Of a stretch of 33,581 nucleotides of DNA, positions 11,416 to 33,581 are shown in pieces (position 1 is the stretch's first letter; each line of letters opens with the position of its first letter). Source of the DNA: a virus; the IMG/VR virus record IMGVR_UViG_3300032284_000662, positions 1 through 33,581 of that record; one strand, written 5' to 3'. The translations under genes were made by a program, and so were the position numbers. Below the pieces are notes generated by a model. It worked only from the letters and a program-made list of their open reading frames with translations, had not been told where the DNA came from and did not search any database.

Positions 11416-12216
11416 ATGAAAATATTAATTACAGGCGGTAACGGATTTATTGGAAAATATCTGCACAAATATTATGCAGAGTATGGACACCACGTGCTAG
11501 CACCAAAACGAGATGAACTTGACTTACTGGATTTAAACTCAGTGCACAATTATTTTACTGCTCATCCAGTTGATGTTGTTATCCACACAGCATTATATGG
11601 TCGTGAGTTAATTAACAGTGATGAAATTGATATGTTTAATAAAAACATGGAGATGTTTGATAATCTGTATGCACAACGCAGTCAATACAAAAAGTTTATC
11701 AATCTTGGAAGTGGATACGAATACGACATCTCTCGCAATATTGATAATGCTGACGAAGATGATATTCTGTATGTTGAACCTAGTAACCCATATGGCAAAG
11801 TAAAGAATCTGATTGCTCAACGCTGTCGTAATACTGATAATTTTTATACCTTGCGATTGTTTGGAGTATTACACTATACGGAATCTGGCAGTCGGTTCTT
11901 CAGAAAATTATATGAATCACGTGAGTTTCATATCACTGAAAACAAACGCTGTGATTACTTCAATCTTGAAGATTTACCAACAGTTATTGATTTAATTTTA
12001 AATGACCAATGTAAACATCGTGAAATGAATTGTGTATATGAAAACAAATATACGCTCGCAGAACTTGCAAAACTATTTTGTGATGTTAAAAATATTGATC
12101 CATCACGTATTATCATTGATAGTGAGGGTGAAAAAAGTTATACTGGCGATAATTCAAAAATCGCCAGTTATAATCTGCCATTTCTTGGTTTAGAATTAGC
12201 CATGCTTAGGTATTAA
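11416..12216 (+). CDS. NAD(P)-dependent sugar reductase/epimerase (extended SDR)
   Basis: 266 residues. The Rossmann motif GGNGFIG (residues 7-13) opens the protein, NLGSGYEY holds the active-site Ser region and PYGKVK carries the Tyr-x-x-x-Lys pair. The size and short C-terminal domain resemble reductases that convert 4-keto-6-deoxy nucleotide sugars (RmlD or GDP-fucose-synthase type) more than large epimerases. In this island it could reduce the product of Gmd. AGGG precedes the ATG. It is the second plus-strand gene, and its last 21 bases overlap the convergent glycosyltransferase gene. Confidence 0.7.
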   Translation: MKILITGGNGFIGKYLHKYYAEYGHHVLAPKRDELDLLDLNSVHNYFTAHPVDVVIHTALYGRELINSDEIDMFNKNMEMFDNLYAQRSQYKKFINLGSGYEYDISRNIDNADEDDILYVEPSNPYGKVKNLIAQRCRNTDNFYTLRLFGVLHYTESGSRFFRKLYESREFHITENKRCDYFNLEDLPTVIDLILNDQCKHREMNCVYENKYTLAELAKLFCDVKNIDPSRIIIDSEGEKSYTGDNSKIASYNLPFLGLELAMLRY

Positions 12217-14180: not shown

Positions 14181-15145
14181 TGTTGTTCCGCTATCTGGTT
14201 TTTAATCCAATTATATGTTTTCTCAATGTCACTACGAAGATGCTGTTTTGGTGACCAATTTAATTTTTCTTTTATTAAATCATTATTGCTATTTCGGCCA
14301 CGAACACCCTGTGGACCAGCTATATATTTCTTATTCAAGGTCTTACCAGCAACGTCGCATACTAAATCAACCAAATCGTTGATAGAGATAAGACGATCAC
14401 TGCCGATATTAACTGGACCACTAAAATCGCTGTCCATAAGACGCATAATGCCATCTACGCAGTCATCAATATGTAGGAACGAGCGTGTCTGTTGGCCGTC
14501 TCCCCAGATTTCAATTTCACCGCCATTTTCTGCCATTGCCACTTTTCTACAAACGGCTGCTGGTGCTTTTTCTTTACCGCCCTGCCATGTTCCTTCTTCT
14601 CCAAAGATATTATGAAAACGTGCCACACGATTACGCATACCATACTGACGATTATATGCGAGATACAAACGTTCACTAAAGAGTTTTTCCCAGCCATATT
14701 CAGTATCAGGATGTGCAGGATATGCAGTTGACTCACGACAGTCTGGATTATTGCGGTCTAACTGATTGTACTCATTGTATACACAAGCACTGCTGCTAAA
14801 AAATACTTGTTCGATGCCTTGTTGCCGTGCTGTATCTACGACACTAAGATTAATTTTTGCACTGTTGTTCATTACATCAGCATCGTTTTCACCTGTACCA
14901 ATATATCCAATACCGCCCATATCAGCAGCAAGTTGGAATACTCGGTCAACCTTCTGATCAATTATAAAATTAACCACCTGTGGATTTCTACAATCACCTA
15001 TGAAAAACTCATCACATGTAGTTGGACTAAAATCTGGAGTTTTCAAATCAACGCCACGGACCCAATAGCCATCTTGTTTTAATCTCTTAGCAACATGGCT
15101 ACCAATAAAACCACCTGCACCTATAACAATTGCTCTCTTTTCCAT
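14177..15145 (-). CDS. GDP-mannose 3,5-epimerase-like enzyme
   Basis: 322 residues from MEKRAIVIGA, chosen for the GAGG six bases upstream. NAD-binding GAGGFIG is at 9-15. Landmarks match plant GDP-mannose 3,5-epimerase closely: ADMGGIGYIG, SSSACVY with Cys121 (117-123), Tyr150-x-x-x-Lys154 in YGWEK, RFHNIFGEEGTW, GGKEKAPAAVCRK with Lys193, WGDGQQTRSFLHIDDCV and GPQGVRGRNSNNDLIKEKL. Cys121 and Lys193 correspond to the acid/base pair of the plant enzyme. It would convert GDP-D-mannose to GDP-L-galactose or the 5-epimer. Bacterial relatives can act on other sugars, so the substrate is likely but not certain. Confidence 0.82.
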   Translation of the reverse strand: MEKRAIVIGAGGFIGSHVAKRLKQDGYWVRGVDLKTPDFSPTTCDEFFIGDCRNPQVVNFIIDQKVDRVFQLAADMGGIGYIGTGENDADVMNNSAKINLSVVDTARQQGIEQVFFSSSACVYNEYNQLDRNNPDCRESTAYPAHPDTEYGWEKLFSERLYLAYNRQYGMRNRVARFHNIFGEEGTWQGGKEKAPAAVCRKVAMAENGGEIEIWGDGQQTRSFLHIDDCVDGIMRLMDSDFSGPVNIGSDRLISINDLVDLVCDVAGKTLNKKYIAGPQGVRGRNSNNDLIKEKLNWSPKQHLRSDIEKTYNWIKNQIAEQQ

Positions 15146-15146
15146 T

Positions 15147-16130
15147 TTAATCCTCGCTCGTGTCAAATATAATGTCAGTTAATCTCTGAATACATGCTTC
15201 TGCAGACCATGATTTTTGAATGTTACTAACATATTCAACGCCATTTTTAATAGTATCTCGTAAGTTCATTTCAGGATATGGTTTCTGATACTGTAAAATA
15301 TGTCTAAATGTAGGATTACTAGATACCGCTATCGGACGACCACTTGCAATAGCCTGATCTGGTGCAGCAGCAATACCTAAAATATGACGTTGATAGAAGA
15401 ATGCATTAACTGTATTCTGACTGCACCAATCTATTAGTTCATCATTACTTAAAAAATCATGAGTAATGCGTAGTTCAACTTTATCACCTGCTTCTGCCTG
15501 ACATTTTTGCAGCACATCTGCAAGTAAAGATTTATTATGATCTGCATAGCTTGCTTGTGGGAGATTAATCCGAACGATTGAACGATCAAACTCTTCTCTT
15601 GCTGCCCTAACAATTAGTTCAAAACCTTTGTCAACTGTAACATATCCATAACAACCAATAATTGGAACTTCTGGTTCAATTTGTTGTCCAGTTAATACCT
15701 TCGGTAGAACTCGTGGAAAGTTATGAAATCTTGGATTACCAAACTTCTTAGTTGGGTCAAGAACTATATAACCGTTAAAACTATCTGGAACATTATCAAC
15801 AACAGGATTGTTTTCGTCTCGTATTTCTTCAACAACCATACAATATTTTACGCCAAGTAGATTACCAAAGTTTCTACACTCAATACCTTCCAACTCACGC
15901 ATTGTATATGGATGATAATTGAAAATAATAACATCATACTGTGGAGGTGTCTGTCCGTCCACAAGAACAATACGTCCTGCATGAAGTTCATTACGATTGA
16001 GATAATTTATCTCAACGTAATCCATAGTCCAATTAGGAGACTTCTCCATTAAATTGAAGAATGTTAACCCTTTTTCGTATATACTACAAGCAGCTTCTCT
16101 TGTATTGACGAACAGAAACCTATATGACAT
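15147..16130 (-). CDS. GT-B glycosyltransferase, paralogue C
   Basis: 327 residues, close to paralogue A along its length: MSYRFLFVNTREAACS at the start, IIFNYHPYTMRE, NFPRVLPKVL, EPEVPIIGCYGY, EFDRSIVRINLP, LIDWCSQNTVNAFFYQR and GIAAAPDQAIASGRPIA. AAAGGA precedes the ATG. It is separated from paralogues A and B by the epimerase gene, so the triplet is interleaved with a sugar-nucleotide enzyme rather than being a simple tandem array. Confidence 0.75.
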   Translation of the reverse strand: MSYRFLFVNTREAACSIYEKGLTFFNLMEKSPNWTMDYVEINYLNRNELHAGRIVLVDGQTPPQYDVIIFNYHPYTMRELEGIECRNFGNLLGVKYCMVVEEIRDENNPVVDNVPDSFNGYIVLDPTKKFGNPRFHNFPRVLPKVLTGQQIEPEVPIIGCYGYVTVDKGFELIVRAAREEFDRSIVRINLPQASYADHNKSLLADVLQKCQAEAGDKVELRITHDFLSNDELIDWCSQNTVNAFFYQRHILGIAAAPDQAIASGRPIAVSSNPTFRHILQYQKPYPEMNLRDTIKNGVEYVSNIQKSWSAEACIQRLTDIIFDTSED

Positions 16131-16139
16131 TTTTATCCT

Positions 16140-17054
16140 TTAAACGTTTCGATAACCAGAGGAGTACTTACCGTTGATTATATCTTCCATAGCATCACGA
16201 ATAATACCAGCCGCTGGAGATGAGTATGTAGTATTACTGAATCTAAAACTTGCTGAAATATCCAACCCAAATGGTAGCGTATCTTCTGCTTTATGACTAA
16301 AGTTAATAAAAATCTTTTGAGGATTTTGTAAATTTTCTTTAGTTTGGGCGTAAGTAAATGGTCCACTATTGTTACCAACGATCAGATTAGTTTTAGTGCT
16401 AAGATAGCTGATTTCACACAGATCATTTGGAATATTAAAAATATCACTAGTAAAGAAGATATTACTTGCCTTGGTCTCAAACTTTTCAGTTACTACAAAT
16501 GCATGATCAGGATGTTGCTTAGCAAGAAGTTCAATAATCTTTTGCATATTATCCATGCTGCTCTGTTTACTTGCAGGTGCGCTGTTGCAGAATAGATAAA
16601 AGTTGGGATGTTCCAATATAAACTTATTGGCAGCACTAACATCAAAAAAATTATAATCAATAGTTGGAACATAATCCCATACATTGTCACTTAGTTTAAG
16701 GTCAATACCAAACTGCTGACGAATGTCATTATAACATTCTGCAAATATGCGATGATGGCTAATATAAGATGGATGAGTATTTGCCCATAATCCCATATAT
16801 GCACCGACCCACGTATTAATTAGGATAGTGTCATCATCACTGCCAAAACGGTTCCATTGGCTAACGCCGTCAAGAACCGCCTTATTATTTTCCTCATCCA
16901 AAGTTTCTACAAGGTCTGATACTGCATGACCGTTCTTATTATGGGCATAGTAATATGTCATGTCTGGCAACTGCCGCTTAATATCGGCAACCAATCCTCT
17001 TGTTGAGAATAGGTCGCCGTAATGCCAATGGTTAAAAAATACAATATTTTCCAA
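16140..17054 (-). CDS. GT9-like glycosyltransferase (probable)
   Basis: 304 residues starting at a TTG directly after the stop of the C-methyltransferase gene; no other start keeps the N-terminal strand (IVFFNHWHYGDLFSTRGLV), and AGG lies upstream at usable distance. The N-terminal GD-F-TR-L pattern and the C-terminal SYLSTKTNLIVGNNSGPFTYAQ resemble ADP-heptose:LPS transferases (family GT9), in which a G-(N/D)-S-G-P loop sits near the sugar nucleotide. The ligand is unknown. The neighbours support a role in glycan assembly. The match is moderate. Confidence 0.6.
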   Translation of the reverse strand: MENIVFFNHWHYGDLFSTRGLVADIKRQLPDMTYYYAHNKNGHAVSDLVETLDEENNKAVLDGVSQWNRFGSDDDTILINTWVGAYMGLWANTHPSYISHHRIFAECYNDIRQQFGIDLKLSDNVWDYVPTIDYNFFDVSAANKFILEHPNFYLFCNSAPASKQSSMDNMQKIIELLAKQHPDHAFVVTEKFETKASNIFFTSDIFNIPNDLCEISYLSTKTNLIVGNNSGPFTYAQTKENLQNPQKIFINFSHKAEDTLPFGLDISASFRFSNTTYSSPAAGIIRDAMEDIINGKYSSGYRNV

Positions 17055-18281
17055 TTATAAACCTATAATCTGAAACTGTGGGCAAGGAACTACCAGCTTA
17101 CCACCGTTAGCAATAAAGTCTTGCTCACGTTTAACAAACTCATCAATAAAGTGCCATGGTAGCACAAGTAGATAGTCTGGTTTAGCTGCTCGCATTTCTT
17201 CTTCACTACAAATTGGAATATTAGTGCCAACTGTTTTCAATCCGAACTTATATGGACTACGTTCTGCAATAGCTACTAGTAGGTCTGGAGTAATGCCAAA
17301 CAACTGTAGCAGCGTGTTACCCTTAGTAGAAGCACCATACCCATAGACCTTCTTACCATCCTTCTTAGCCTGTTGCAGGAAGTTGATTACCTGAGTTTTA
17401 AGGTCTTCAATATTTTCACCGAATGCTCGCCAAAGTTCTGGTTTTGAAATATCCCAGTGGCTTTCTTCAAGTGCGAGTGTGCTAGCAATGCGGAAGTCAC
17501 ATACGTCACGTAGTGGTGCAGTTGCAAAGTTTCTCTTATTTGATGTATTCTTCTGGAAATACACACGGAAAGAACCACCATTGGTATCATTCAGTGAGCA
17601 ATCACGTAACACAAACCCCTCATCTTCAAACAACTGCTTAATACTGTTGAGTGAATAGTAATAAACGTGTTCGTGACAGATATTATCAAATGCTAACTGT
17701 TTCAACATAAGTGGAGTATAGCTCATCTGTAGAACAAATACACCATCATCTTCAAGAATGTTATACGCATCACGAATGAATGGACGTGGATTATCAAGGT
17801 CATAGAACATAGCAATGCATGTAATAACCTTTGCCTTGCGACCAGCAAATCCAGTGCGATTGAATGCATCAAGACTAAAGAAATCCTGAACAACACTGGT
17901 TGCTACCTTACGACTTTCGGCAAGATAACTGTCATCGGCTGGATCAATACCAATCTTAATCATGTTATTAGGAACCTGACGTAGCAGGGTTCCGTCATTA
18001 CATGCAATATCCAACCAAATGTCATCATCATTGATCTTTACACGACCTGTAATTTCATTGACAATTTCACCCAATTGCTTGGTCATACTTGCATTAATAC
18101 CACTGCGATACCAATACTGACCATACATCTTGTCAAGCGGGGCAACGCCATCAAGACGTGCTGCACCAATAGTTTCGTCAAGATATAGGTCTAAGCTCCA
18201 TGGTTTAGTTTCACGCATATCAGCGCCTGGCTTTATGAAATCAGATACGTAATGCTCGCCTAATTCTAATAGTTTCTTCAT
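17055..18281 (-). CDS. Sugar C-methyltransferase
   Basis: 408 residues. The three-part layout of nucleotide-sugar C-methyltransferases (NovU/TylC3 type) is visible: a short N-terminal region, a SAM domain with WLDIACNDGT (89-98), the family signature HEHVYYYS (203-210) and NGGSFRVYF, and a C-terminal Methyltransf_14 domain with YGYGASTKGN (313-322) and LPWHF (374-378). Known members add a methyl to a ring carbon of a 4-keto-6-deoxy nucleotide sugar. The cysteines that bind zinc at the N-terminus of many members are missing here. Gmd, two genes away, makes a suitable class of substrate. The start overlaps the next gene's stop (ATGA). Confidence 0.85.
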   Translation of the reverse strand: MKKLLELGEHYVSDFIKPGADMRETKPWSLDLYLDETIGAARLDGVAPLDKMYGQYWYRSGINASMTKQLGEIVNEITGRVKINDDDIWLDIACNDGTLLRQVPNNMIKIGIDPADDSYLAESRKVATSVVQDFFSLDAFNRTGFAGRKAKVITCIAMFYDLDNPRPFIRDAYNILEDDGVFVLQMSYTPLMLKQLAFDNICHEHVYYYSLNSIKQLFEDEGFVLRDCSLNDTNGGSFRVYFQKNTSNKRNFATAPLRDVCDFRIASTLALEESHWDISKPELWRAFGENIEDLKTQVINFLQQAKKDGKKVYGYGASTKGNTLLQLFGITPDLLVAIAERSPYKFGLKTVGTNIPICSEEEMRAAKPDYLLVLPWHFIDEFVKREQDFIANGGKLVVPCPQFQIIGL

Positions 18282-18700
18282 TTTAATCCCTCGTTGATGT
18301 ATGATTTTGTTTCTACAATATCACTATTATAGAGTTTATTGATATCTAATTTATATTGGCAGCGGTCTTTATTTCCCTGATGAACATCGGTTACCAGCTT
18401 AATAAACTCACTGTCGTATGGTTTCAAGTCTGAACCATATGTTCTTACAACGTCTTCATGCCGCCAAATCATATGATTTACTGCTTTGAGATTTTTAACT
18501 ATGTCATCGACTGGAGCACTTGGTTGGTCAAGACTGTCAATAATCTTCATGAGTTCTGCTAATTCTTTATTAACATACTCAATCTTAATGCGATTGGCAG
18601 GACTGTCTACCTTACTATATTCTTCTAACTTAATGTTAAGAATAGTAATCTTGTCCCACAAATCGCCAACGCTAATTGGTGCAAATACTAACTGGCCCAT
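18278..18700 (-). CDS. DUF6165 family protein
   Basis: 140 residues. The N-terminal SVGDLWDKITILNIKLEEY block followed by ANRIKIEYVNKELAELMKII is typical of the DUF6165 family, helical proteins of unknown activity that often lie among LPS and capsule genes. It sits between Gmd and the C-methyltransferase with a two-base gap on one side and an ATGA overlap on the other, so it is very likely produced with them. Function is unknown. Confidence 0.7.
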   Translation of the reverse strand: MGQLVFAPISVGDLWDKITILNIKLEEYSKVDSPANRIKIEYVNKELAELMKIIDSLDQPSAPVDDIVKNLKAVNHMIWRHEDVVRTYGSDLKPYDSEFIKLVTDVHQGNKDRCQYKLDINKLYNSDIVETKSYINEGLK

Positions 18701-18702
18701 GC

Positions 18703-19722
18703 TTAACCCTTCTTAGCTAAGTTATAATCATTCTCACACATGTCATTGACAAGTGCGTGAACGTCATATTCTGGTGTCCAATTAAGAACACGGCGAACCT
18801 TAGTGGCATCGCCCTGAATGTTAACAACGTCAACTGGACGATAGAAATCAGGGTTAACCCTAATCACAACTTCGCCAGTTGCAGCATTTCTAGCAACCTC
18901 GTCTACGCCTTCACCTTCCCAATTTAATTTAATGTCAAAATATTGAGCGGTGTAGTTACAGAAATCACGAATGCTTGTCTGAACACCCGTTGCAACAACG
19001 TAATCAGCAGGTGTACCATGCTGCAACATCATCCACATTGCACGAACATAATCTTTAGCATGACCCCAGTCACGTAGGCTATTCATGTTACCAAGTTCAA
19101 GAACCTTCTGCTTACCAAGAACCATGTTAGCAAACGCCTTGGTAATCTTACGTGTTACGAACAACTCGCCACGACGTGGAGATTCATGATTGAACAGTAG
19201 ACCGTTGCAGCCAAAGATGCCATAACTTTCACGATAGTTAATCGTAATCCAATATGCATAAATCTTTGCTGCACTATATGGAGAGCCTGGATAAAACGGA
19301 GTATCTTCATTCTGTGGATTATACTTCTGAATACCAAACATTTCGCTGGTAGAAGCCTGATAAAACTTGGTTTCTTTTTCCATCTTGAGAGAGTGGATAC
19401 TATCTAAGATACGTAGTGGACCAAGAGCATTCGTATCACCAGTGAGTTCTGGCATTTCAAAGCTAACTTTAACATGGCTCTGTGCTGCAAGATTATAGAT
19501 TTCAGTAGGACGAATCTTGTCAATAAGGTTACGGATACTATTACCGTCACTCAAGTCGCCATTGTGAAACTTGACACGATCCTTAACATTCTGAATATTT
19601 GGATGGTCAAAGTTTGCACTGCGACGAATTAGACCATGAACTTCATAACCTTTGTCGAGTAACATTTCTGCCAGATAGCTGCCATCTTGACCAGCAATAC
19701 CTGTGATTAGTGCTTTATTCAT
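18703..19722 (-). CDS. gmd: GDP-mannose 4,6-dehydratase
   Basis: 339 residues, full length for the family. NADP-binding GIAGQDGSYLAE (8-19), active-site ASTSEMFG (123-130, with Thr125 and Glu127), Tyr149-x-x-x-Lys153 in SPYSAAKIY, and the GDP-mannose region FNHESPRRGELFVTRKI (178-194) are all intact. It converts GDP-D-mannose to GDP-4-keto-6-deoxymannose, the branch point to GDP-fucose, rhamnose, perosamine and C-methylated sugars. GGAG precedes the ATG. Gmd is a common auxiliary gene of marine T4-like phages, usually explained by host LPS or virion glycan modification. It appears to lead the 10629-19722 sugar operon. Confidence 0.95.
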   Translation of the reverse strand: MNKALITGIAGQDGSYLAEMLLDKGYEVHGLIRRSANFDHPNIQNVKDRVKFHNGDLSDGNSIRNLIDKIRPTEIYNLAAQSHVKVSFEMPELTGDTNALGPLRILDSIHSLKMEKETKFYQASTSEMFGIQKYNPQNEDTPFYPGSPYSAAKIYAYWITINYRESYGIFGCNGLLFNHESPRRGELFVTRKITKAFANMVLGKQKVLELGNMNSLRDWGHAKDYVRAMWMMLQHGTPADYVVATGVQTSIRDFCNYTAQYFDIKLNWEGEGVDEVARNAATGEVVIRVNPDFYRPVDVVNIQGDATKVRRVLNWTPEYDVHALVNDMCENDYNLAKKG

Positions 19723-23983: not shown

Positions 23984-24352
23984 TTAAAAAACTGCCCCTT
24001 GACCAGTAATTTCTTGATGCCAAGAATAAAAAGGAGCAGGTATTACAAATCTCCAATCAATATTCTCTAGCCAATTTGTTGGCGGAGTTCCGTGATTTAG
24101 ATATAGTGGTAATATATGATGGCCATTTACGCTTATATCTACAATTTCTAATGCGCCATCCCCACCTAAGTTTTTATATTCAAATACCAAATCATCCAAT
24201 AAATCAAAATACATTATAGTATTTGCAAACTTTCCATTTACTGTAAAGATATAATTTGGTTCACGGTGTATTTTTATATCTATTGTAACAATTAATTTAT
24301 TTTGAGTATCAATATCCATAATGTCGGAGAAACTCTGTATATCTTGGGGCAT
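23984..24352 (-). CDS. Small protein overlapping radical SAM B (possible substrate)
   Basis: 122 residues. The start, preceded by AGGAT, lies 44 bases inside the end of the radical SAM B gene, so the two are translated together. The sequence is beta-rich (LIVTIDIKIHREPNYIFTV, then ALEIVDISVNGHHILPLYL) and ends with an aromatic segment, APFYSWHQEITGQGAVF. No domain is recognised. Overlap with a radical SAM enzyme suggests an enzyme/substrate or enzyme/partner pair; the C-terminal tail, rich in Tyr, Trp, His and Gln, would be the obvious place for modification. This is inference only; it could equally be an independent virion or regulatory protein. Confidence 0.65.
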   Translation of the reverse strand: MPQDIQSFSDIMDIDTQNKLIVTIDIKIHREPNYIFTVNGKFANTIMYFDLLDDLVFEYKNLGGDGALEIVDISVNGHHILPLYLNHGTPPTNWLENIDWRFVIPAPFYSWHQEITGQGAVF

Positions 24353-25625
24353 ATTCTGTTATCCTATTGTTATGAATCTGCTCAAATGCTTTTAAAAACT
24401 TAATTAAATTATATCTGTCATTTTCAACATTAAATGAACTTTTATAATTGCATAAAAAATCATAATATTCAATAATAGTATTAGAAATGTTTTGATCTAT
24501 CAAATGATAGTTACGAATATTAACTAATGACGGGTCTTTTTGTAAACTATAATCATCTATTAATGTTTTAAACTTTGTAATAGTTTCTTGGCGTATATCA
24601 TCTGGTAGTAGTTCCATTCGTAAAACACTTGGCTTGGTTAATATATTACAACTTTCGGCAGACAGTTTGTTTTCTATCATAAACCTAGCAAGCAGATCAA
24701 ACTCATATATTGTAAAAATGTTTGGGGTTATTCGCAAGTTTAAGAATAAGTTTTGATTATTATCTCTTAGCATTTTAAACTTATTAACAATATCTAGAAC
24801 ATTGGTTATTTTACTAGGATGACGAATATAATCATTTAATTCAGTTACAGTTTCTATGCTAACTCCTAAATGGAACTGTTTAAAGTTTTTAACATAGTGC
24901 TCTATTTTTTCATTATAAACTGTGCAGTTAGTAGTTGTCCCAATAATTACATTCTTTGATAACCCATTTTCTATTAACTTGTCGCATATTTTATAAAAAG
25001 CAGGATCATATAGAGTTTCGCCACCTAATAAATGTATGTAATTTAATCTTGGTATTTGTCCTAATTCTTCAACAAACTTATCGACCAATGCATCGTCTCT
25101 AGTCCAACTACGACTACGAGATGAGGCATTAAACATATCTGGTTGGAGTTTATTTAAACTCTTATACTCATTTTCAAGACGACTACTATATTGCGGAGAG
25201 CACATAATGCAACTGCTGTTACATGTATTTCCTAAGTTTATTTGCAAGTCTACTGGATAATAATCACTGTTTCCAGAGTTTTCCCAACTATATTTGAAAT
25301 TATTATAGTGCGGACTTGCACGTGTTTTGTCTGGAAAGTTATCAAATGTTATGCCACTTTTTAAAAGTTGTTTTGTTCTACCAGTTAGCTTATTAAACTT
25401 GTCTTCATAATAACATGCTGAACACTTATCACTGGGATTTCCAGAAAGCAAATCTAGACGAAACTTAGACATTTCTGGACCATTAAAGAAATCCATTAGA
25501 CTAGTATTCTGAATATTTTTAACGGTATCACCTAGAGTCGATGACCATCTACATAAATTGTAACTACCATCGTGATTTATCTTGATGTGCAACCACGGAC
25601 TTGAACAAAAAGTATCTTGAAGCAT
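24309..25625 (-). CDS. Radical SAM protein B (twitch/SPASM-like)
   Basis: 438 residues. The N-terminal FCSSPWLHIKINHDGSYNLC (Cys7, Cys25) with Cys68 and Cys71 (CSAC) resembles the auxiliary-cluster module of twitch/SPASM enzymes, here placed before the core. The SAM motif is Cys135-x3-Cys139-x2-Cys142 (CNSSCIMC), with LGGET at 200-204. It probably makes a 5'-deoxyadenosyl radical to modify a peptide, protein or sugar; the substrate is unknown. The ATG lies in the 3' arm of a small hairpin (CATAAC/GTTATG), which could limit translation. It is AT-rich next to gp32. The downstream gene overlaps it by 44 bases. Confidence 0.8.
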   Translation of the reverse strand: MLQDTFCSSPWLHIKINHDGSYNLCRWSSTLGDTVKNIQNTSLMDFFNGPEMSKFRLDLLSGNPSDKCSACYYEDKFNKLTGRTKQLLKSGITFDNFPDKTRASPHYNNFKYSWENSGNSDYYPVDLQINLGNTCNSSCIMCSPQYSSRLENEYKSLNKLQPDMFNASSRSRSWTRDDALVDKFVEELGQIPRLNYIHLLGGETLYDPAFYKICDKLIENGLSKNVIIGTTTNCTVYNEKIEHYVKNFKQFHLGVSIETVTELNDYIRHPSKITNVLDIVNKFKMLRDNNQNLFLNLRITPNIFTIYEFDLLARFMIENKLSAESCNILTKPSVLRMELLPDDIRQETITKFKTLIDDYSLQKDPSLVNIRNYHLIDQNISNTIIEYYDFLCNYKSSFNVENDRYNLIKFLKAFEQIHNNRITEYAPRYTEFLRHYGY

Positions 25626-25648: not shown

Positions 25649-25852
25649 TTAAGAAATATAAACTGGTGTACCGTCAATTTGGTCACCAGTTATAATAACA
25701 AAATAGCGTCCATCGTCTGTTGGACCCATATGAACAGAGTGGTTTGGAAAATTAGGCATAACTTCACTAATAACTTTCCAACTCATAGAACCGCTATCAG
25801 TATACGTTTGTTTTGATGCCCAATCTTGTAACCAAACTAAATCGTAAATCAT
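25649..25852 (-). CDS. Small hypothetical protein (67 residues)
   Basis: The start overlaps the stop of the 78-residue gene before it (ATGA). Aromatic-rich N-terminus (MIYDLVWLQDWASKQTY) and a compact beta-like end (DGRYFVIITGDQIDGTPVYIS). It is the last gene of the late block that begins with terminase and lacks the RRLAGL-type tag of its neighbours. No family is recognised. Confidence 0.6.
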   Translation of the reverse strand: MIYDLVWLQDWASKQTYTDSGSMSWKVISEVMPNFPNHSVHMGPTDDGRYFVIITGDQIDGTPVYIS

Positions 25853-26085
25853 AGACCACCAGTACGTTTAATCTTATCTAAAAGTAGTATAACAGGATAT
25901 AAATCTTCAACAATACTGTTGGCAAGTTCTGCAGTGTATTCACGAGTCAATTGCTGATTCTTTGCAGTTTGACGTAAATTAGAAAGAACACTAATAGCAT
26001 CATCAATGCTACTAACGTCCGCTTCGTTTACTGTCACGGATTCATTTAATCCACTTAATCTTTTGAGATCAGTTAAACTATCCAT
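25849..26085 (-). CDS. Small tagged protein (78 residues), probable virion component
   Basis: It opens with MDSLTDLKRLSGLNESV, a variant of the repeated leucine-rich tag, here followed at once by LNE. After a possible cut at LNE the rest would be a helical protein of about 63 residues (AISVLSNLRQTAKNQQLTREYTAELANSIVEDLYPVILLLDKI). No family is recognised. The tag and the position after three tagged genes suggest it is packaged in the head, which is inference. Confidence 0.6.
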   Translation of the reverse strand: MDSLTDLKRLSGLNESVTVNEADVSSIDDAISVLSNLRQTAKNQQLTREYTAELANSIVEDLYPVILLLDKIKRTGGL

Positions 26086-26089
26086 TGTA

Positions 26090-26629
26090 TTATTTCAATC
26101 CTGCAATATCTTTCATGCGCTGAATAGCTTCAGCAACTTGACGATCTTCATCCGCTTTATCTTTTCCGAAAGGCTTTCCTGATTTAGCAGCAGCCTTGGC
26201 ACGTGAACCCCAAACTTCATCTTTGTTGGATTCAACTTCGCCATCACCATCATAATCTTTATCAGCTTTCTTTTCTGCTGCTTCCATAGTCTTTACATCA
26301 CCCTGTTCATGGCGTGACTTCATAACTTCAGTTGCAGTTGAAAGATAATCCTGTGCCTTGGTAATCTTGGCCTGAATCCATTCAGGTAGATTTTCATTAC
26401 CGTTTAGTAGGTCTTCGAGTTCTTTAGCAGCACGTTCGATGGTTTCAAGTTGGTCTTTTGCCATACCAGATTCATCATCGTACTCACCATCTACACTGTC
26501 TTTGCTGTCAGTTGCAATCTGATCAGGAGCAGTGTCTTCAGCTTCATCTTCCTGTGCATAGATGTAATTTTCATCTAATTGCTTTAAACCAGCGAGTCTG
26601 GCAATGTCTTCTAAAATTGTTTTTTTCAT
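26090..26629 (-). CDS. Tagged acidic protein (179 residues), probable head-internal protein
   Basis: The N-terminus is MKKTILEDIARLAGLKQLDE and the C-terminus IQRMKDIAGLK, so both ends carry the repeated tag. Between them lies a very acidic, probably disordered or helical region (TAPDQIATDSKDSVDGEYDD), a helix (IERAAKELEDLLNGN) and a DKDYDGDGEVESNKDE stretch that resembles a single calcium-binding loop (DxDxDG). The start has GGGAG upstream. An N-terminal tag followed by LDE recalls T4 internal-head proteins that are cut by the prohead protease. No family is recognised. Confidence 0.7.
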   Translation of the reverse strand: MKKTILEDIARLAGLKQLDENYIYAQEDEAEDTAPDQIATDSKDSVDGEYDDESGMAKDQLETIERAAKELEDLLNGNENLPEWIQAKITKAQDYLSTATEVMKSRHEQGDVKTMEAAEKKADKDYDGDGEVESNKDEVWGSRAKAAAKSGKPFGKDKADEDRQVAEAIQRMKDIAGLK

Positions 26630-26630
26630 T

Positions 26631-28571
26631 TTATTCTCCCTTTAGACCTGCTAGTCTGCGTAAGTTATTTATCTCAACCGACTCGCCAGTTGGGTTCTTC
26701 AAACCATAATACTTTACTGGGTCTTTATTAATTTGTGTTCGTAATTGTGTTTGACTTGGATTATCTTTTAAATGCTGATCTGGTGCTTGAATTTTTAGAG
26801 GTTGATTTGTTCGTGCATCAATTTGACCAGCAATAGGTGCGGGTGATTTAATAATATTATTAGTTATTTCACTGCTTGGATCACTTGTATCTTTTGAAGC
26901 ACTGTCTGTTCCACGAATGACACTATTAACATAGTCACTTCTTTCTTGATCTGTGCCTTTTAATTGACCTGGATGCATTAATGGTTCAGCAGGTTCTTCT
27001 TTAATTCCTGCTAATTTACGCATAGAGTTTAATTCAACAGATTCATCTTTTTGAGGTAGTATACTTGAAGGCGCAATTCCAGCTTTAACCAATGGTTCTC
27101 TTACATTCGTATCCATCCAATCATTGGCAGATGATGCTGCACTTGATATTGTATCTCCAGCAGTTCCGCTTAATGTTTTCAACCAATCAAGTGTTGATGG
27201 TTCTGGATTTGCAGAACCTGGACCAGCCTGTGGAGGTGTAGCTGCTTGTTGTCTTGCCTTTTCATCAGCATCCCACTTTTTATCAAAATCGTCCATACCT
27301 TTTTTAATATCTGCTGGCTCCATATGTGGCGTACTAGCATCAGAAGATGATTGGGATGTTGGTTCGTCGCCAGTAGCAAGTAAGTTTAAATCAATATCGT
27401 GGTCAACTCCAGCTTTGCGAAGAGTATTAATAAGATTTTTTTGATAATCATTGGCTCCAGTTGGATAAGGTTTACCCATTGGGTCAACTTCTGTTGAAGG
27501 AACGTCTTTTGGCAATTGATTAACAGCAAGTGGCGCATCGGCTTGCGTAGTGTCAACTGACGGAAACTCACCACCTGATGCGGGAGTATCTTTTTTATCA
27601 CTAACAACTTGTCCAAGACCAGTTAATATGCGATCATGCATGTTTTTTAATTCGTCATCTGGGTATGCATTAGTTGAACTAACTGGTTTTTCAGTATCTG
27701 GTGAAACAGTGCTCGGCATTGGTGGGGCTGGTGGGAATACTGGAACCTGACCTTTTATCTTACCACGAGAAATATTCCACAAATTATCATTTTTTGCAAT
27801 AGTGTATGAACTACCGTCTGGAAGAGTAATCTTGTCACCTGGGTTAATAATAGTATTCACATTATTTTTAAAACGAGGATTTGCTGCTACCAATGAATCT
27901 AATGGATCGGTCCCACTTGTGCTAGCAGTTGAGGTAGACGTAGGAACTGATGGAGTAGGCGTTGGTGTTGGTGTATGCGGCACATTTGGTTGTGATACAG
28001 ACTTTGGTATTTCGGATGCAGGATTAGAAGAAGTTGTAGCAGTTGATTGTTGTGCTGCTTTTGCCGCTGGTTGAACTGCAGTGGTTGATGTTTTTTCAAT
28101 AGGTGCAGCACTCAGTGCTTTATTAACTGGATTCACATCATCAGGATTATTAACAAGTGTAACATGATTGCCATAGTGTTTTAATCCATGACTATCCAGT
28201 ATACCAAGTTTTGCCATTTCACGAGCAGCAGGTGAGTCTAGTGCAAAACCTTTTTCATGTGGGCTAGAGCCTGGATCAGCAGGTTCATGTTCAATACCCT
28301 CTCTGTCGCCACTATTCCATCTATCTTTTAATTTTTTCTGATATGCCGTAGTTCTATGTGCCGATATAACTGGAACTCTTTTTCCAGTTACTTTATAATA
28401 ATCATCCGCTGCGCCTTGAAATGCTTGTTGCAACTCTGTACGAGTTCCCTCCCAACTTGTATTATTTTGAAAATCAATAGGAGTTACATCCTCTGGCGGT
28501 ACGGGATTATCCTCATTAAGAGAACGAAGTCCTGCCAATTTCATGATATCTTCGAGCAACGGTGTTTTCAT
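26631..28571 (-). CDS. Tagged virion protein with M15 peptidase and LysM-like regions
   Basis: 646 residues. The N-terminal tag MKTPLLEDIMKLAGLRSLNE is followed by an M15 (VanY/D-Ala-D-Ala carboxypeptidase-like) region: ISAHRTTAYQ (69-78), SPHEKGFALD (103-112, zinc ligands His105 and Asp112) and YGNHVTL with His136. A Pro/Thr/Ser linker leads to a LysM-like region (about 221-275, NPGDKITLPDG and YTIAKNDNLWNIS). Further tags occur at about 511-524 (ELNSMRKLAGI) and at the C-terminus (VEINNLRRLAGLKGE), separated by low-complexity acidic stretches. It is probably a peptidoglycan hydrolase carried in the particle and used at DNA entry, or else a late lysin. The enzyme class is well supported; packaging is inferred from the tags. 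Confidence 0.75.
   Translation of the reverse strand: MKTPLLEDIMKLAGLRSLNEDNPVPPEDVTPIDFQNNTSWEGTRTELQQAFQGAADDYYKVTGKRVPVISAHRTTAYQKKLKDRWNSGDREGIEHEPADPGSSPHEKGFALDSPAAREMAKLGILDSHGLKHYGNHVTLVNNPDDVNPVNKALSAAPIEKTSTTAVQPAAKAAQQSTATTSSNPASEIPKSVSQPNVPHTPTPTPTPSVPTSTSTASTSGTDPLDSLVAANPRFKNNVNTIINPGDKITLPDGSSYTIAKNDNLWNISRGKIKGQVPVFPPAPPMPSTVSPDTEKPVSSTNAYPDDELKNMHDRILTGLGQVVSDKKDTPASGGEFPSVDTTQADAPLAVNQLPKDVPSTEVDPMGKPYPTGANDYQKNLINTLRKAGVDHDIDLNLLATGDEPTSQSSSDASTPHMEPADIKKGMDDFDKKWDADEKARQQAATPPQAGPGSANPEPSTLDWLKTLSGTAGDTISSAASSANDWMDTNVREPLVKAGIAPSSILPQKDESVELNSMRKLAGIKEEPAEPLMHPGQLKGTDQERSDYVNSVIRGTDSASKDTSDPSSEITNNIIKSPAPIAGQIDARTNQPLKIQAPDQHLKDNPSQTQLRTQINKDPVKYYGLKNPTGESVEINNLRRLAGLKGE
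26666..26673 (-). promoter_or_regulatory. Late-type promoter (GATAAATA)
   Basis: GATAAATA on the minus strand inside the last codons of the M15/LysM gene, 36 bases before the ATG of the 179-residue gene. The octamer encodes part of the C-terminal tag (Glu-Ile-Asn), so it may be coincidental. Confidence 0.35.
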
Positions 28572-28580
28572 AATAAAACC

Positions 28581-31550
28581 TTATAGTCCTGCTAGTCTTC
28601 TTAATTCAGTTAGTTTTGAATCACCGTGATTATTAGTTTTAGAATCAGTGGTTATTCCAGTTTTAGTGTCGCCAACTCCGCCATCAGCCGCTGATGCTGC
28701 TGGTGGGGTTGCTACAGTAGGAGAATTATCAAATTTTCCAGGTGGTGTTCCAATTGGGTTTGAAGAACCACCCGATGGCTTTATAAATCCAGTATCATCT
28801 TTTCCAATTGGTGTTGGACTAAGTGCACTTGGTGCAGAAGGTGCTGCTGTAGCAGGTGTTGCAGGGGTTGCAGGTGGTGTTGCTGCTTGTGCTGCATTTG
28901 GGTCTGGTAATCTTGCACCACCAAGAGCAACAGATGTAGGAGAACCACTTTGTCCAGTTAGTGCTCCCATAAATGAACTACTCTTAGCTGCTGCATCAAG
29001 ACTTGCTTGTGGAGTTCCTGCAGCTTGTGTTGGACGTGCTGCATTTGATGCTGCTTGTGCTGCGTCTAGACTTGCTTGCGGTGTTCCTGCAGCTTGAGTA
29101 GGTCTATCAGATGGTTTAGCTGCTTGTGCAGTAGTAGCAGGGTCTAAACCTGCACCACCACTATTTGATGCATTTCTAGCAACATTTGGATCAAATGCTT
29201 GCACTGGGCTTTTGCCTGGAGGTGGGTTTGTATTGTTTCTTGCTTGAATTACTGCAGGGTCATTATTACCACCCTTGATTGCAGTTTTGCCCTGAATAGC
29301 GTTCATTGCTTGACCGACTGTTGCACCTGGATTTAATCTCTGGAAATCCTTAATAGTTCCCTGAAATTTTTGTGATGCTGCTGGTGCATTTGCTCTAGTA
29401 ACTGTTCCTCCAGCAGGTGCTTTCGGTGCTACTGGTGGGGCTTCAGAAATATTATATTCATTTAGTAAGTGTAATCCAGCAAGGCGACGTAAATCATTTA
29501 ATGATTCACGAACTGGATATGTTTTTCCGTCAACCTCAAATGATTTCTTTCCAGCCGCACGTGCAGCAGCAAGCGATCCACTAAATTCATTGCCTTCCAT
29601 TTCAACTCCTTCTTTTGGAACAGTAAATTCTTTATCAAATCCGCCGCCATCTTTATAAACTGGCTGATCTGGTTCAAATGTTTGTTTTGGTCCCATACGT
29701 TTTGGGTCAAACATTGATGGTTCATTTGATTTTGACGTAGCTGGATTATATTTTGGTGTTGAAGGATCAGCATCAAGTGCTTGAATTTTTGTTCCGATTG
29801 GATCAGGGTCATCTGCTGGTGGAACTGGCTTATCACCATAATCATGCGCCACTTCATCAACTCCACGTGCGTCTTTTGCTTTTTGTGCTGCTTCTTCAAC
29901 ATCATCCCAACGCTTGTCATCAGCATCTGGGTCTGCATGTTCTGGCGCATCGGCTGGACCTGCTTCTTTCATATATTTGTCACGAATGCGACCTAATTCT
30001 TCTTGGCTTGCACCGTCACGACCTGCTTTTGCAAGTGCTTCCATGCCGTCTTTACCATACTTTTTCTTACCAGTATAGTATTGAAGTCCGCTTTCTTCTA
30101 CTTCTGCTTCGCCAATGCTCATGATGCTTTCTTCAAACTCATCTGCCTCAGTTGAAGCATTAACTGGACCACCACGACGATTTGGTTCAACACGAACAGT
30201 GGCAGCATATTCAGGGTTTTTTACAACTTCACCCAAATCTTTCATATACTTTTGTGCAAGGACAATTGCTAATTTTTTGTCACGTGCATATTCTTTGTCG
30301 GGTGTCTGTGCAAATGCTTCGCCTTCGCTGCTGATTAGATCACCCATAAGTGATGCAAAGTTTGCAACATCATCGCCATCTTTTGCCATTAGACGGTTTG
30401 CAATATCACCAAGAATAGCACTTAGTAGTGCAGTCTTGTCAGTATATTGACGACTGACCATTAATTTATCAAGAGCAGAATCTTTCCTCAATACTAGCTT
30501 GAAATTAGGGTCAAGAATCTTTTGTTCAACCGCACCAGCAGCTTCGGACAACTTTGTCATTGCATTTTCCTTTAATCTTTTATATGCACCAGCAGCACTG
30601 GCTAGGTAATTGTCTAGGTTTTCATTATATGTTTGTTGTGTGAACCAACCTTTTACTTCACCCAAATCTTCAGGTGTTTCACTGATCAGATTTGCAAGTT
30701 CTGTTAGGCTTTCACTAAAACTACGACTATTGTTGCTCAAGCGATTGAGGTGACGCTTGATGCTTTCTTTCATCTGAATAGCAGACTTAATGACATTACC
30801 AGCCTCTGCAGCTTCAAATGTCTTATTGTTTGTAGTGCGAACAAAGCGACCAAGATTACGCATTTCATTTACTGCACGACCAATTAGCTGGCCTTGTGGA
30901 TCATATGGGTTACCACCACGGGATACGTGATTTGCCATAGCTTTAGCACCGCTTATGCTCTTAAAAGGTAGTAGGAACTTTTCACCACTTTCATTTACTA
31001 GGTAAATTCGGTCTACTTTAAGTAGACGATTGTTAGTATTCTCAAGCATTTTTTCGTTATGAACAACATGAATGCGAACATTGTTTAGGTCGCCTTCGCT
31101 TATCTTTCCACGACGCTGCCATAGAACACGGCTTTCTTCTAATGATTCTTTCATTTTTTTCTTCTCTGGATTGAGGGTTTGCATATACTTGTAATCTTGG
31201 CGACTAAGCGTGTCTTTGGTAATGTCACGCACGTCAAAGTTTAACATATGACTTTTTGCATAACGACGCAACTCACGAAGGAACATATACCAGTAGCTTT
31301 TATCTTCTGGCAACATACGTTCTGTGATAGCAGTATCAAAGAAAACTTTAAGTGAATCACCACTGATTAGTGAACAAGTAATGTCACCATATGGTCTTTT
31401 ACTTTCTTTATCGGTATATAAAAAACTAAAAAAGCGAGCATTTTCTGGATCAACGATAGGTGTGCCATTCTCGTCTCCCATTTTTACCTGTGGAAAACGA
31501 TTTCTTAATTTAAAAAATAAATCTTCTGCTGCTTGGTTAATTTCACTCAT
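28581..31550 (-). CDS. Large tagged late protein (989 residues), probable virion protein
   Basis: The N-terminal half (to about residue 480) is well-ordered in appearance: FFKLRNRFPQVKMG, ARFFSFLYTDKESKRPYGDITCSL, YWYMFLRELRRYAKSHM and LLPFKSISGAKAMANHVSRGG, with helical stretches to about 470. The rest is low-complexity, rich in Ala, Pro, Gly, Asp and Lys. A tag, ESLNDLRRLAGLHLLNE, lies near residue 690 and another ends the protein (LTELRRLAGL). A 16-residue repeat occurs twice. If cut at the internal LNE the protein would give two parts. It lies directly after terminase. I know of no named family; N-terminal homologues in marine T4-like phages seem likely. Confidence 0.75.
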   Translation of the reverse strand: MSEINQAAEDLFFKLRNRFPQVKMGDENGTPIVDPENARFFSFLYTDKESKRPYGDITCSLISGDSLKVFFDTAITERMLPEDKSYWYMFLRELRRYAKSHMLNFDVRDITKDTLSRQDYKYMQTLNPEKKKMKESLEESRVLWQRRGKISEGDLNNVRIHVVHNEKMLENTNNRLLKVDRIYLVNESGEKFLLPFKSISGAKAMANHVSRGGNPYDPQGQLIGRAVNEMRNLGRFVRTTNNKTFEAAEAGNVIKSAIQMKESIKRHLNRLSNNSRSFSESLTELANLISETPEDLGEVKGWFTQQTYNENLDNYLASAAGAYKRLKENAMTKLSEAAGAVEQKILDPNFKLVLRKDSALDKLMVSRQYTDKTALLSAILGDIANRLMAKDGDDVANFASLMGDLISSEGEAFAQTPDKEYARDKKLAIVLAQKYMKDLGEVVKNPEYAATVRVEPNRRGGPVNASTEADEFEESIMSIGEAEVEESGLQYYTGKKKYGKDGMEALAKAGRDGASQEELGRIRDKYMKEAGPADAPEHADPDADDKRWDDVEEAAQKAKDARGVDEVAHDYGDKPVPPADDPDPIGTKIQALDADPSTPKYNPATSKSNEPSMFDPKRMGPKQTFEPDQPVYKDGGGFDKEFTVPKEGVEMEGNEFSGSLAAARAAGKKSFEVDGKTYPVRESLNDLRRLAGLHLLNEYNISEAPPVAPKAPAGGTVTRANAPAASQKFQGTIKDFQRLNPGATVGQAMNAIQGKTAIKGGNNDPAVIQARNNTNPPPGKSPVQAFDPNVARNASNSGGAGLDPATTAQAAKPSDRPTQAAGTPQASLDAAQAASNAARPTQAAGTPQASLDAAAKSSSFMGALTGQSGSPTSVALGGARLPDPNAAQAATPPATPATPATAAPSAPSALSPTPIGKDDTGFIKPSGGSSNPIGTPPGKFDNSPTVATPPAASAADGGVGDTKTGITTDSKTNNHGDSKLTELRRLAGL
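28989..29105 (-). repeat. Two 48-base coding repeats (RPTQAAGTPQASLDAA)
   Basis: Copies at 28989-29036 and 29058-29105, 21 bases apart, encode the same 16 residues in the Ala/Pro-rich tail of the 989-residue protein. Several codons differ at third positions, so the duplication is not brand new and the peptide has been kept. Confidence 0.85.
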
Positions 31551-31571: not shown

Positions 31572-33137
31572 TTAAAGCATAACAAATGGCATAGGCGGAA
31601 TAATATCTGATTTGTCCATTTCTAATGATCCACTGATACGAGAATCGTACATTCGTAGGTGTAATATCATACGAATTGCCAATAGTGTAGCTGCTACAAG
31701 GTCATCAGTTTCACCAACTTTAGCCTCATAACTTACACCATGTGCTACGTATGTTTTTAATTCACTAATTAAGTTCTTACTACGTAGCTTAATTTTACCT
31801 GTTTCTGCCCAAAGTTTAAACTTAGAACACGCACCTATCTTACTTTTAGGTGTTGTATTAAATCCTTTGCGATATCGACGACCAGCACTTGCACCATTTG
31901 GTTCACTAAGGAAACTGCCTGGAATATTCTCTTCACCTAAGTCTGCTACTGCCATAAGTGCAGCTTCGCCTATTGAATTGTTTTCAACACTATAATATAT
32001 ATTACCACGATCACCAGTAACTTCAAGGATATACTGACATATTTCAGATAGTATACCAACCTGACGTTGAATGATTGTTAGATTATGTCGCCACTCTGCT
32101 ACTTGATTCATTGTGGTGGCATCATATACTTGTATTGCAGCATAGTCACCACCTGTTCCTAAACTTGGGTCAAGTGCAACAATATAGATATGATTCTTTA
32201 CAGGTTTTTCATACCAACGAACTTGGCCCTGTTTTTCAATAGGCTCAACACCATTCATATCTACTAGAACGCCTGGAGCAATAAGCGTTTCGTCATAAAT
32301 GATAAACTCGCAATTGTGCTCACGACGGAAACGATCAACGCCGACGCTTGACATTTCACGATTTGCCCAATCTTGGTCACGTTCTGGATGACGATCCCAT
32401 GTTGCAAGATATGGACTAAATCCATTACGTCCAAGTTCAGTTTCATTACCGAACTCGTCAAACTTTTTGTTAGCTTCACGCCAAATATCTGCAAATTGGT
32501 CTTCGTCGCTATTTGGGGTAGATGTAATAATTGCCTTACCACCAGTTGACAGCGTAGGACTAATAGAAGTCCAAAACTCATGTGCAATAGTAGGTCGCAC
32601 GAACGCCAACTCGTCACAGTATAGTAGTGAGATAGACATACCACGACCAGTGGTTTCAGTAGTGGTGGCACTTACAATACGACTATCATTATCAAACCCA
32701 ATATTACCCTTATTATAATCAATAACACCTGCACGAATGTGATCTGAACAGTTTTCATATGCGTATCTAATACGCTGCATGATTTCCTGTGCACCAGTAT
32801 ACTTGTTACTTGCTACAAGAATAGTCGCATCAGATATAAACATCGCATACCATAGCAGATATCCTGCTGCAATTGTGGTCTTACCCATTTGGCGACCAAG
32901 CATATTAATGCTAAAACGATAATTATGATAATTTGTTAATAGTTCCTCTTGGTAATCAAACGGAACAAACTTTTGTTTTCCTCGTGTAGGATGCTGAATA
33001 TAGAAGAAGTTTTTAATAAAATATTCTGGACCAGTCACTGGGTCCGCACAAAGACTAAATTCCAACAGTTCCTGTTGGCTCATCTTGGTACGTCTATGTG
33101 GTTTCTTAACGAGGTTATTTTCTGGTTCTTTTGCCAT
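31572..33137 (-). CDS. terL: Terminase large subunit (gp17)
   Basis: 521 residues from MAKEPENNLV; the frame is open for 32 more codons, but those overlap the upstream gene and look unrelated. ATPase motifs: Walker A GRQMGKTT (81-88), Walker B LLYCDE (171-176) and coupling motif TSTPNS (205-210). The RNase H-like nuclease follows, with acidic residues at Asp323 (ALDPSLG), Glu385 (SVENNS) and Asp478/479 (TDDLVAATLL). It packages DNA into the prohead and cuts concatemers. It is shorter than T4 gp17 (610) but has all key residues and no intein. An endonuclease-like gene directly precedes it, where gp16 would be expected in T4. Confidence 0.96.
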   Translation of the reverse strand: MAKEPENNLVKKPHRRTKMSQQELLEFSLCADPVTGPEYFIKNFFYIQHPTRGKQKFVPFDYQEELLTNYHNYRFSINMLGRQMGKTTIAAGYLLWYAMFISDATILVASNKYTGAQEIMQRIRYAYENCSDHIRAGVIDYNKGNIGFDNDSRIVSATTTETTGRGMSISLLYCDELAFVRPTIAHEFWTSISPTLSTGGKAIITSTPNSDEDQFADIWREANKKFDEFGNETELGRNGFSPYLATWDRHPERDQDWANREMSSVGVDRFRREHNCEFIIYDETLIAPGVLVDMNGVEPIEKQGQVRWYEKPVKNHIYIVALDPSLGTGGDYAAIQVYDATTMNQVAEWRHNLTIIQRQVGILSEICQYILEVTGDRGNIYYSVENNSIGEAALMAVADLGEENIPGSFLSEPNGASAGRRYRKGFNTTPKSKIGACSKFKLWAETGKIKLRSKNLISELKTYVAHGVSYEAKVGETDDLVAATLLAIRMILHLRMYDSRISGSLEMDKSDIIPPMPFVML

Positions 33138-33144
33138 GTTAAAA

Positions 33145-33152
33145 TATTTATT
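33145..33152 (-). promoter_or_regulatory. Late-type promoter (AATAAATA) before terminase
   Basis: AATAAATA on the minus strand, seven bases before the gp17 ATG and overlapping the stop of the endonuclease-like gene. It would give an almost leaderless mRNA, so it is a weak call. Confidence 0.3.
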
Positions 33153-33581
33153 GACATGTAAATTTCTTAGGACATTTATTTCCATGCCACCTTGAATATA
33201 AAGGCAAACTACACGTTTTTTTACAATATTCACATGTTATTTTTGTTTGAGAAGGATGTGTCCCATCTGCTAGTCTTTTATTTGATAAAGATGCACCTAT
33301 AAAATTATGCTCTCCATTTTTTACTCTTTTATTAGCAACTTCTTTAGATTTAATGGAAATACTTTTTACTTTTTTCTTTTGTAATTCACTTCTTCTTTGA
33401 TTTATTATTTGATTTTGAGAATTGTGAGTTCCATTTAATACTTGTTGTTTTACGGTTTTGCTTCGTTGTATATTTGATTCGGGCGAAGACGGACTCATAG
33501 TCCCATTTTTTCTTTTAGTTTCTAATGTTTTTTTAACAATATCGTCTGGCATCGCTCCGCCATCGCCCTCTTCTAGTCTAA
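33148..33581 (-). CDS. Homing-endonuclease-like protein, C-terminal part (5' end outside window)
   Basis: The frame is open to the right edge, so the N-terminal, presumably catalytic, region is not visible. The visible part has repeats of a basic helix followed by NGTH/NGEH (KTLETKRKNGTMS, KTVKQQVLNGTHNS, NKRVKNGEHNF, NKRLADGTHPS), which are DNA-binding modules typical of the C-termini of GIY-YIG and HNH homing endonucleases. It ends in a zinc-finger-like CEYCKKTCSLPLYSRWHGNKC-type module. An internal ATG at 33552 could also start a shorter protein. It is AT-rich and sits immediately before terminase. Nuclease type is unknown. Confidence 0.65.
   Translation of the reverse strand, partial: RLEEGDGGAMPDDIVKKTLETKRKNGTMSPSSPESNIQRSKTVKQQVLNGTHNSQNQIINQRRSELQKKKVKSISIKSKEVANKRVKNGEHNFIGASLSNKRLADGTHPSQTKITCEYCKKTCSLPLYSRWHGNKCPKKFTCQ

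Follow-up and report, generated by a model that had tools for sequence, protein, structure and literature searches.

Tagged proteins beside the terminase gene

The window analysed here is the whole of a 33,581-base fragment of a lake jumbo myophage (IMG/VR record IMGVR_UViG_3300032284_000662). Four adjacent open reading frames (ORFs) on its minus strand (25849–31550), located beside the gene of the terminase large subunit, code for proteins, termed A to D in the following, which carry copies of a ten-residue leucine-rich peptide ending in LAGL or a similar sequence (Table 1). This peptide, referred to as the tag, is, judged by its sequence, the C-terminal tail of the gp22-type prohead scaffold of this phage group. 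The initial annotation had listed eight copies of the motif in the four late proteins, four of them running into LNE or LDE. All eight are indeed present on the minus strand, and the four continue as LNES, LDEN, LNED, and LLNEY. Protein B contains three copies, and proteins A and C contain two each.

The terminase of the window, which served as anchor when the loci of relatives were compared, is most closely related, among isolates, to those of Pseudomonas jumbo phages of the PA5oct/Paride group (53% identity); many IMG/VR contigs code for a terminase that is 80–84% identical to it. Protein A matches phrog_13484, a “virion structural protein”, with E=0.002, and its homologue at relative locus L021 does so with E=1.8e-8. 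The AlphaFold model of protein A, the overall confidence of which is low, suggests long disordered arms in which the tags form short helices. Foldseek searches with this model did not retrieve any PDB entry at E<=0.001, and the matches in BFVD were unnamed phage proteins only. Protein B matches the endolysin family phrog_2649 (E=4e-8) and, slightly short of the cut-off, Pfam VanY (E=6e-5); a sequence search of the PDB with protein B gave nothing useful. As a guess, this weak M15/VanY-type peptidase match could fit a role in cell-wall opening during infection. Searches of Pfam, NCBIfam, and PHROGs did not assign proteins C and D to any family above cut-off, and did not reveal a domain corresponding to the tag.

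The four proteins had been described as unrelated. They are encoded by four ORFs in the window, but in many relatives proteins A and C are parts of one polypeptide (L002:11592-14570, L006:11586-14828), which leaves three or four evolutionary units. Since the VanY-like protein B is encoded between A and C in the window, it looks like an insertion, or else the A-C fusion looks like a deletion. In relatives with the fusion, the N-terminal tag of protein C becomes an internal one.

Table 1. Tagged proteins, tags, predicted protease sites and terminase gene of the window
Feature	Position	Strand	Basis or remark
Terminase large subunit	31572..33233	(-)	phrog_36964, E=1.9e-114; Pfam Terminase_6N
Protein A, 989 amino acids (aa)	28581..31550	(-)	conserved N-terminal domain and long disordered arms; two tags (internal, extreme C-terminal)
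Tag LNDLRRLAGL, internal in A	29472..29501	(-)	sequence; modelled short helix, residues 684-690
Predicted protease site LNE after internal tag of A	29457..29465	(-)	sequence; enrichment shown for N-terminal tags
Tag LTELRRLAGL, final ten residues of A	28584..28613	(-)	sequence; modelled helix 975-986 ending disordered arm
Protein B, 646 aa	26631..28571	(-)	M15/VanY-like peptidase region and three tags
Tag LEDIMKLAGL, N-terminus of B	28527..28556	(-)	sequence
Predicted protease site LNE after N-terminal tag of B	28512..28520	(-)	sequence, enrichment
Tag LNSMRKLAGI, internal in B	27003..27032	(-)	sequence
Tag INNLRRLAGL, C-terminus of B, followed by KGE	26643..26672	(-)	sequence; profile score 21.7
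Protein C, 179 aa	26090..26629	(-)	fused to A in relatives
Tag LEDIARLAGL, N-terminus of C	26585..26614	(-)	sequence
Predicted protease site LDE after N-terminal tag of C	26570..26578	(-)	sequence, enrichment
Variant tag IQRMKDIAGL, C-terminus of C	26096..26125	(-)	sequence; relatives with A-C fusion end LTWLQAVAGIKSK
Protein D, 78 aa	25849..26085	(-)	7 homologues, N-terminal tag in all
Tag LTDLKRLSGL, N-terminus of D	26047..26076	(-)	sequence
Predicted protease site LNE (before S), directly at end of tag of D	26041..26049	(-)	sequence, enrichment

Conservation of the motif

The strict pattern [LIMVF]xx[LIMVAFY]x[RKQ][LIMV][AS]G[LIMVF] describes seven of the eight copies in the window, the variant at the C-terminus of protein C being the eighth. 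Shuffling of the window proteins (2000 shuffles) yielded a mean of 0.08 strict matches and a maximum of 3. Because pairs of copies share just 11–23 of 30 bases, conservation is at the level of the protein and not that of a DNA repeat; the differing codons rule out a DNA repeat or a recent duplication as origin of the tag. In 80 terminase-adjacent relatives, the coding strand contained 63 matches, the opposite strand none.

The tail of the prohead scaffold

The motif is not confined to the four proteins of the window; its most striking occurrence elsewhere is the C-terminus of the scaffold. In the genome of a 338-kb relative (G003), the clearest match outside the terminase cluster was the C-terminus of a protein of 365 residues, the gene of which is located between those of a gp21-type protease (phrog_207, E=1.6e-58) and a gp23-type major capsid protein (MCP; phrog_138, E=4e-99). 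A gene coding for a gp20-type portal (phrog_213) precedes all three, and the order of the head genes is that of T4, 20-67/68-21-22-23. The counterpart of the 365-residue protein in phage 121Q is annotated as “scaffolding (T4 gp22-like)”, and AlphaFold predicts long helices comprising residues 16–202 and 209–283 (coiled coil), disorder from 325 to 352, and a short helix, residues 353–361, formed by the tail. Gene order, phrog matches, the coiled coil, and the annotation in 121Q identify the owner of the tail as a gp22-type prohead scaffold.

The initial annotation had proposed a search for the motif in the gp22 equivalent of the phage, and the outcome was positive: at 78 of 78 further MCP loci, representing 70 distinct 20-residue tails, the ORF directly upstream of the MCP gene ends in the motif. 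The tails read ..NVI[DE][LIM][KR]RLAGL or a close variant, and residues L, A, G, and L of the tail are invariant in an alignment of 27 scaffold sequences. An alignment of 73 sequences showed a poorly conserved linker before the tail and an [LIVM]xE sequence within the last 70 residues of every protein, mostly 30–38 (most often 34–36) residues from the end, which commonly reads LTE/S, ITE/S, or INE/S (the stroke marks the presumed cut). Isolates with the tail come from other hosts; the scaffold ends in VEELRRLAGIK in PA5oct, HELRRLAGIEK in Phosso, INDLKRLAGIKK in Atu_ph07, and LDRLTKIAGIRK in Vibrio phage 2.275.O, and GAP32 and 121Q keep a diverged form. T4 gp22 ends in IVSVYAKVASRF, and the scaffold of S-RIM2 likewise ends differently from the LAGL tail.

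Tags in other proteins of related genomes

A profile built from 27 distinct scaffold tails alone was used to scan seven genomes (3700 proteins), five shuffles of each serving for comparison. Apart from the scaffolds, its best matches were mostly members of families A and D, the protein encoded upstream of the terminase gene, and EST35_0235 and EST35_0203 of PA5oct; a C-terminally tagged “virion structural protein” of G003 (phrog_13138) was also found. Eight genomes with LAGL-tailed scaffolds contained 37 strict matches (29 without the scaffolds) as compared to 6.95 expected, and 18 matches at protein ends (10 without the scaffolds) as compared to 1.65 expected. Clustering with the tags masked resulted in 20 groups including the scaffold, five of which were judged to be chance. 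Strict matches in ClpA-like ATPases (G024/G027), in G024 84953, and in EST35_0300 of PA5oct were taken as chance, that in the PA5oct ATPase EST35_0335 is probably another, and PA5oct 192184 (FVELKRKAGF), which has a good score but no mass spectrometry (MS) note, was also assigned to this class. Chance or low-complexity similarity among leucine-rich helices hence accounts for some matches, such as the ClpA-like ATPases, but as an explanation of the set as a whole it is refuted by the shuffling counts (7 seen against 0.08 in the window, 37 against about 7 in the eight genomes); with the motif being conserved over distant phages, its probability is negligible.

A 64-residue protein of L002 has an LAGL N-terminus, and the L006 homologue, with 48% identity across 42 residues, starts differently; this difference, together with the shift of a tag by the A-C fusion, indicates that the tag travels with modules and sits at several positions. 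The last residue of the tag is I or V in nine of ten cases with LAGI scaffolds, as compared to 4 of 16 with LAGL scaffolds (Fisher p=0.004), but this covariation of scaffold and cargo, hand-counted after the fact, is only suggestive. At L278 (G027 158973-164073), in a cluster away from the terminase gene, four adjacent genes start MKI[KNT]..; an LAGL-type tag also terminates the products of the first two and lies close to the end of the third. This is possibly a second cargo cluster, in which a single protein may carry tags of two kinds.

Predicted cleavage sites

The gp21 protease of T4 cuts after L/I-X-E, and propeptides of 10–19 residues target internal proteins to the core and are then removed (PMC9026906). 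Among the N-terminal tags, which like all others were selected without regard to cut sites, 23 of 25 distinct tags, which represent 7 of the 8 families, have [LIVM]xE[SAGNDQYT] in the 16 residues after them, against a background of 0.10, conditioned on a hydrophobic first residue (binomial p ~1e-6 by family). Within the same distance, [LI]xE occurs after 20/25 tags (background 0.15) and [LIVM]xE after 23/25 (background 0.22).

LxE sites adjoining nearly all N-terminal tags, and a tagged scaffold that is itself a protease substrate, would also agree with the tag being an exosite or substrate mark which brings gp21, rather than a head address. However, the MCP, a major substrate with a site of its own (LAE/S in G003, as read from the sequence), is devoid of a tag, proteins with a T4-type MRAxEFITE start have cut sites but no LAGL tag, and T4 gp21 requires little besides L/I-X-E (PMC9026906). 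We regard recruitment of the protease as improbable. Still less credence is given to the tag being a helix for oligomerisation in general or for host interaction, which would act after ejection and resemble the scaffold tail only incidentally. Short amphipathic helices are common, and several positions could give multivalency; against this, the profile made from scaffold tails alone finds cargo, and the motif is missing from phages with different scaffold tails (T4, one strict match, internal; S-RIM2, none). Moreover, because the cut sites come after the tags, the tags would be lost before ejection.

Tagged proteins in virions of PA5oct

The record of PA5oct lists 93 gene products as positive in electrospray ionization tandem mass spectrometry (ESI-MS/MS). 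Strict matches outside the scaffold occur in four proteins, and all four are MS positive (p=0.002, uncorrected for length). The family A homologue EST35_0206, with the slightly looser tag ATDLKRLSGV, is also MS positive. The scaffold EST35_0153, unlike its neighbours, has no ESI-MS/MS note, yet particles of phAPEC6 yielded two peptides of its scaffold.

A probable docking tag common to scaffold and cargo

Taken together, these observations are best explained by the LAGL peptide being a docking tag common to scaffold and cargo, which we consider probable. In this clade of T4-related jumbo phages, the scaffold would consist of a long coiled coil followed by a flexible linker, with a short amphipathic helix of mildly basic character, [IV][IV]x[LIM][KR]RLAGL, at its end. 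The most likely role of this helix is to attach to a fixed receptor within the prohead during assembly. This receptor would be the inward side of the shell protein or, with lower probability, part of the core. Proteins A, B, C, and D and the family encoded upstream of the terminase gene, with one to three copies of the helix at the N-terminus, at the C-terminus, or in disordered internal arms, would be enclosed through the scaffold's own contact; the long arms of protein A with their helical tags, as modelled, would fit several contacts per molecule. A gp21-type prohead protease would cut at [LIVM]xE beside the tags and, in the scaffold, some 35 residues from the C-terminus, which would free the cargo within the head, prior to any ejection that may follow, and allow the scaffold pieces to leave. 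The initial annotation had postulated a head-targeting tag cut by a gp21-like protease. The scaffold tails (78/78), the [LIVM]xE enrichment, and the virion MS data of PA5oct lend this proposal strong, though indirect, support, but the tag is not the capsid-targeting sequence (CTS) of T4 itself.

The shell is the favoured receptor, because the scaffolds of P22 and herpesviruses bind coat protein via their C-termini (PMC9962691, PMC8539031). As a possible but doubtful alternative, the tail docks on the core, either on a different region of the scaffold or on another core protein, and cargo joins the core like the internal proteins of T4. The CTS peptides of T4 do have core affinity, internal proteins co-purify with gp22 (PMC9026906), and the scaffold's own tail could serve core-core contacts. 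Besides the two precedents of coat binding, the model of the scaffold speaks against such docking, the tail being predicted as a helix of its own, set apart from the coiled coil by a flexible linker.

Several points weigh against a docking tag shared by scaffold and cargo. The window fragment lacks a scaffold gene, and the likeness of tag and scaffold therefore rests on relatives. The result for the four PA5oct proteins is inflated, because MS-positive proteins of this phage are longer than average; two of the four, EST35_0300 and EST35_0335, are probably chance matches, and the firm cases therefore are EST35_0203, EST35_0206, and EST35_0235. Cut sites appear less clear beside C-terminal and internal tags than beside N-terminal ones: ES occurs up to 16 residues upstream in 12/44 of them, against a background of 0.05, but many of these are homologues. 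Phage 121Q has a diverged tail, LKELDVLSGI, and few cargo tags; G013 has the scaffold tail, but no strict match in cargo and one looser one (LMRLKELAGI). Two sets of tags (LAQILKLAGM, LTWLQAVAGI) deviate from the exact sequence of the scaffold.

If the proposed docking is true, sequence alone suffices to list tagged cargo, and the docking contact of the scaffold narrows down to ten residues. The tag would then also serve as a small, transferable peptide which, placed at the N- or the C-terminus, could load proteins into large phage heads. A broader proposal is a clade-wide, position-independent address code, in which copies of the scaffold helix enclose any carrier and the prohead protease frees it, operating beside T4-type N-terminal targeting; we give this an even chance. 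There is a real chance that natural mimicry of the scaffold by cargo is a new principle. A literature search did not find the motif mentioned in the texts covered, which is a weak sign of novelty, since subscription journals were mostly outside the coverage.

Comparison with known systems

Like the CTS of the T4 proteins IPI, IPII, IPIII, and Alt, the tag is a short peptide common to sequence-unrelated proteins and followed by L/I-X-E, and head gene order and protease family are the same as in T4. N-terminal LAGL copies resemble the CTS in being a short peptide shared by unrelated, putatively internal proteins (8 families), but the C-terminal and internal copies do not. The T4 CTS, MKTYQEFIAE, is N-terminal and is no copy of the gp22 tail, whereas the LAGL tag is also C-terminal and internal, with up to three copies per protein. 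The tag may work like a capsid-targeting sequence, yet as a sequence it is not that of T4; identity of the two was rejected, since T4-type MRAxEFITE exists separately in the same genomes. T4-type sequences (MRAxEF[IV]xE, MRISEIIVEA, and similar ones) head 5–8 proteins per genome in G003 and G024–G027 (shuffles <=0.15). Proteins of this type are encoded by L006:6581-9429 and by G003 20660, 232144, 243515, 297068, and 298696, some of them far from the head genes, and constitute a second candidate list of packaged proteins.

In P22, the scaffold attaches to coat through a basic, helical C-terminal segment, and fusion to the scaffold leads to encapsidation of cargo (PMC9962691). The principle, enclosure of cargo that carries a scaffold segment, is the same, but there it was put to use by engineers, and the segment is a helix-turn-helix of about 36 residues as compared to the ten-residue helix proposed here. 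The coat-binding segment is not known to be copied by natural P22 cargo. The scaffolds of the LAGL group resemble those of P22 and herpesviruses in having a conserved, predicted helix at the extreme C-terminus on a flexible linker (78/78 tails; AlphaFold). In herpesviruses, scaffold and protease have a C-terminal end in common, by which they bind the MCP (PMC8539031). There, the shared tail derives from overlapping genes, whereas here separate copies occur in unrelated cargo genes, and the C-terminus of the G003 protease, unlike that of the herpesvirus protease, does not carry a tag. The herpesvirus tail is set free by a maturation cleavage upstream of it.

Encapsulins likewise dock cargo inside a shell by means of short C-terminal peptides (PMC7925596), but involve neither a scaffold nor a protease; the likeness drawn here is one of principle. 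In SPN3US and phiKZ, many head proteins have removable propeptides, and the C-terminal propeptide of SPN3US gp245 has been proposed to target the protease (PMC7411985); the passages covered do not report a shared short motif identical to the scaffold tail. Cleavage in phiKZ follows S/A-X-E (PMC9026906). C-terminal propeptides are also thought to target head proteins in the case of T4 Alt and gp21 as well as SPN3US gp245 (PMC9026906, PMC7411985). The C-terminal copies of the tag, which the initial annotation had called a new twist, thus have precedents; the internal copies it had noted are present.

Other features of the window

The tagged cluster is adjoined by a gene coding for a Radical SAM/SPASM protein (24309-25625; PF04055, PF13186). 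L002 and L021 have a gene of like size at this position, oriented opposite to the terminase gene; L006 does not. A block of genes of sugar-nucleotide/glycan type, including those of an NAD-dependent epimerase and a C-methyltransferase, occupies positions 11416-19722 of this phage fragment. Genes resembling those of HNH-type and intron-type endonucleases are found at the two ends of the fragment (42-779 and 33148-33552), the latter directly upstream of the terminase gene. Five tandem small ORFs at 1579-2651, coding for proteins of 62–79 residues with the common ending ..F..RW, are probably diverged duplicates.

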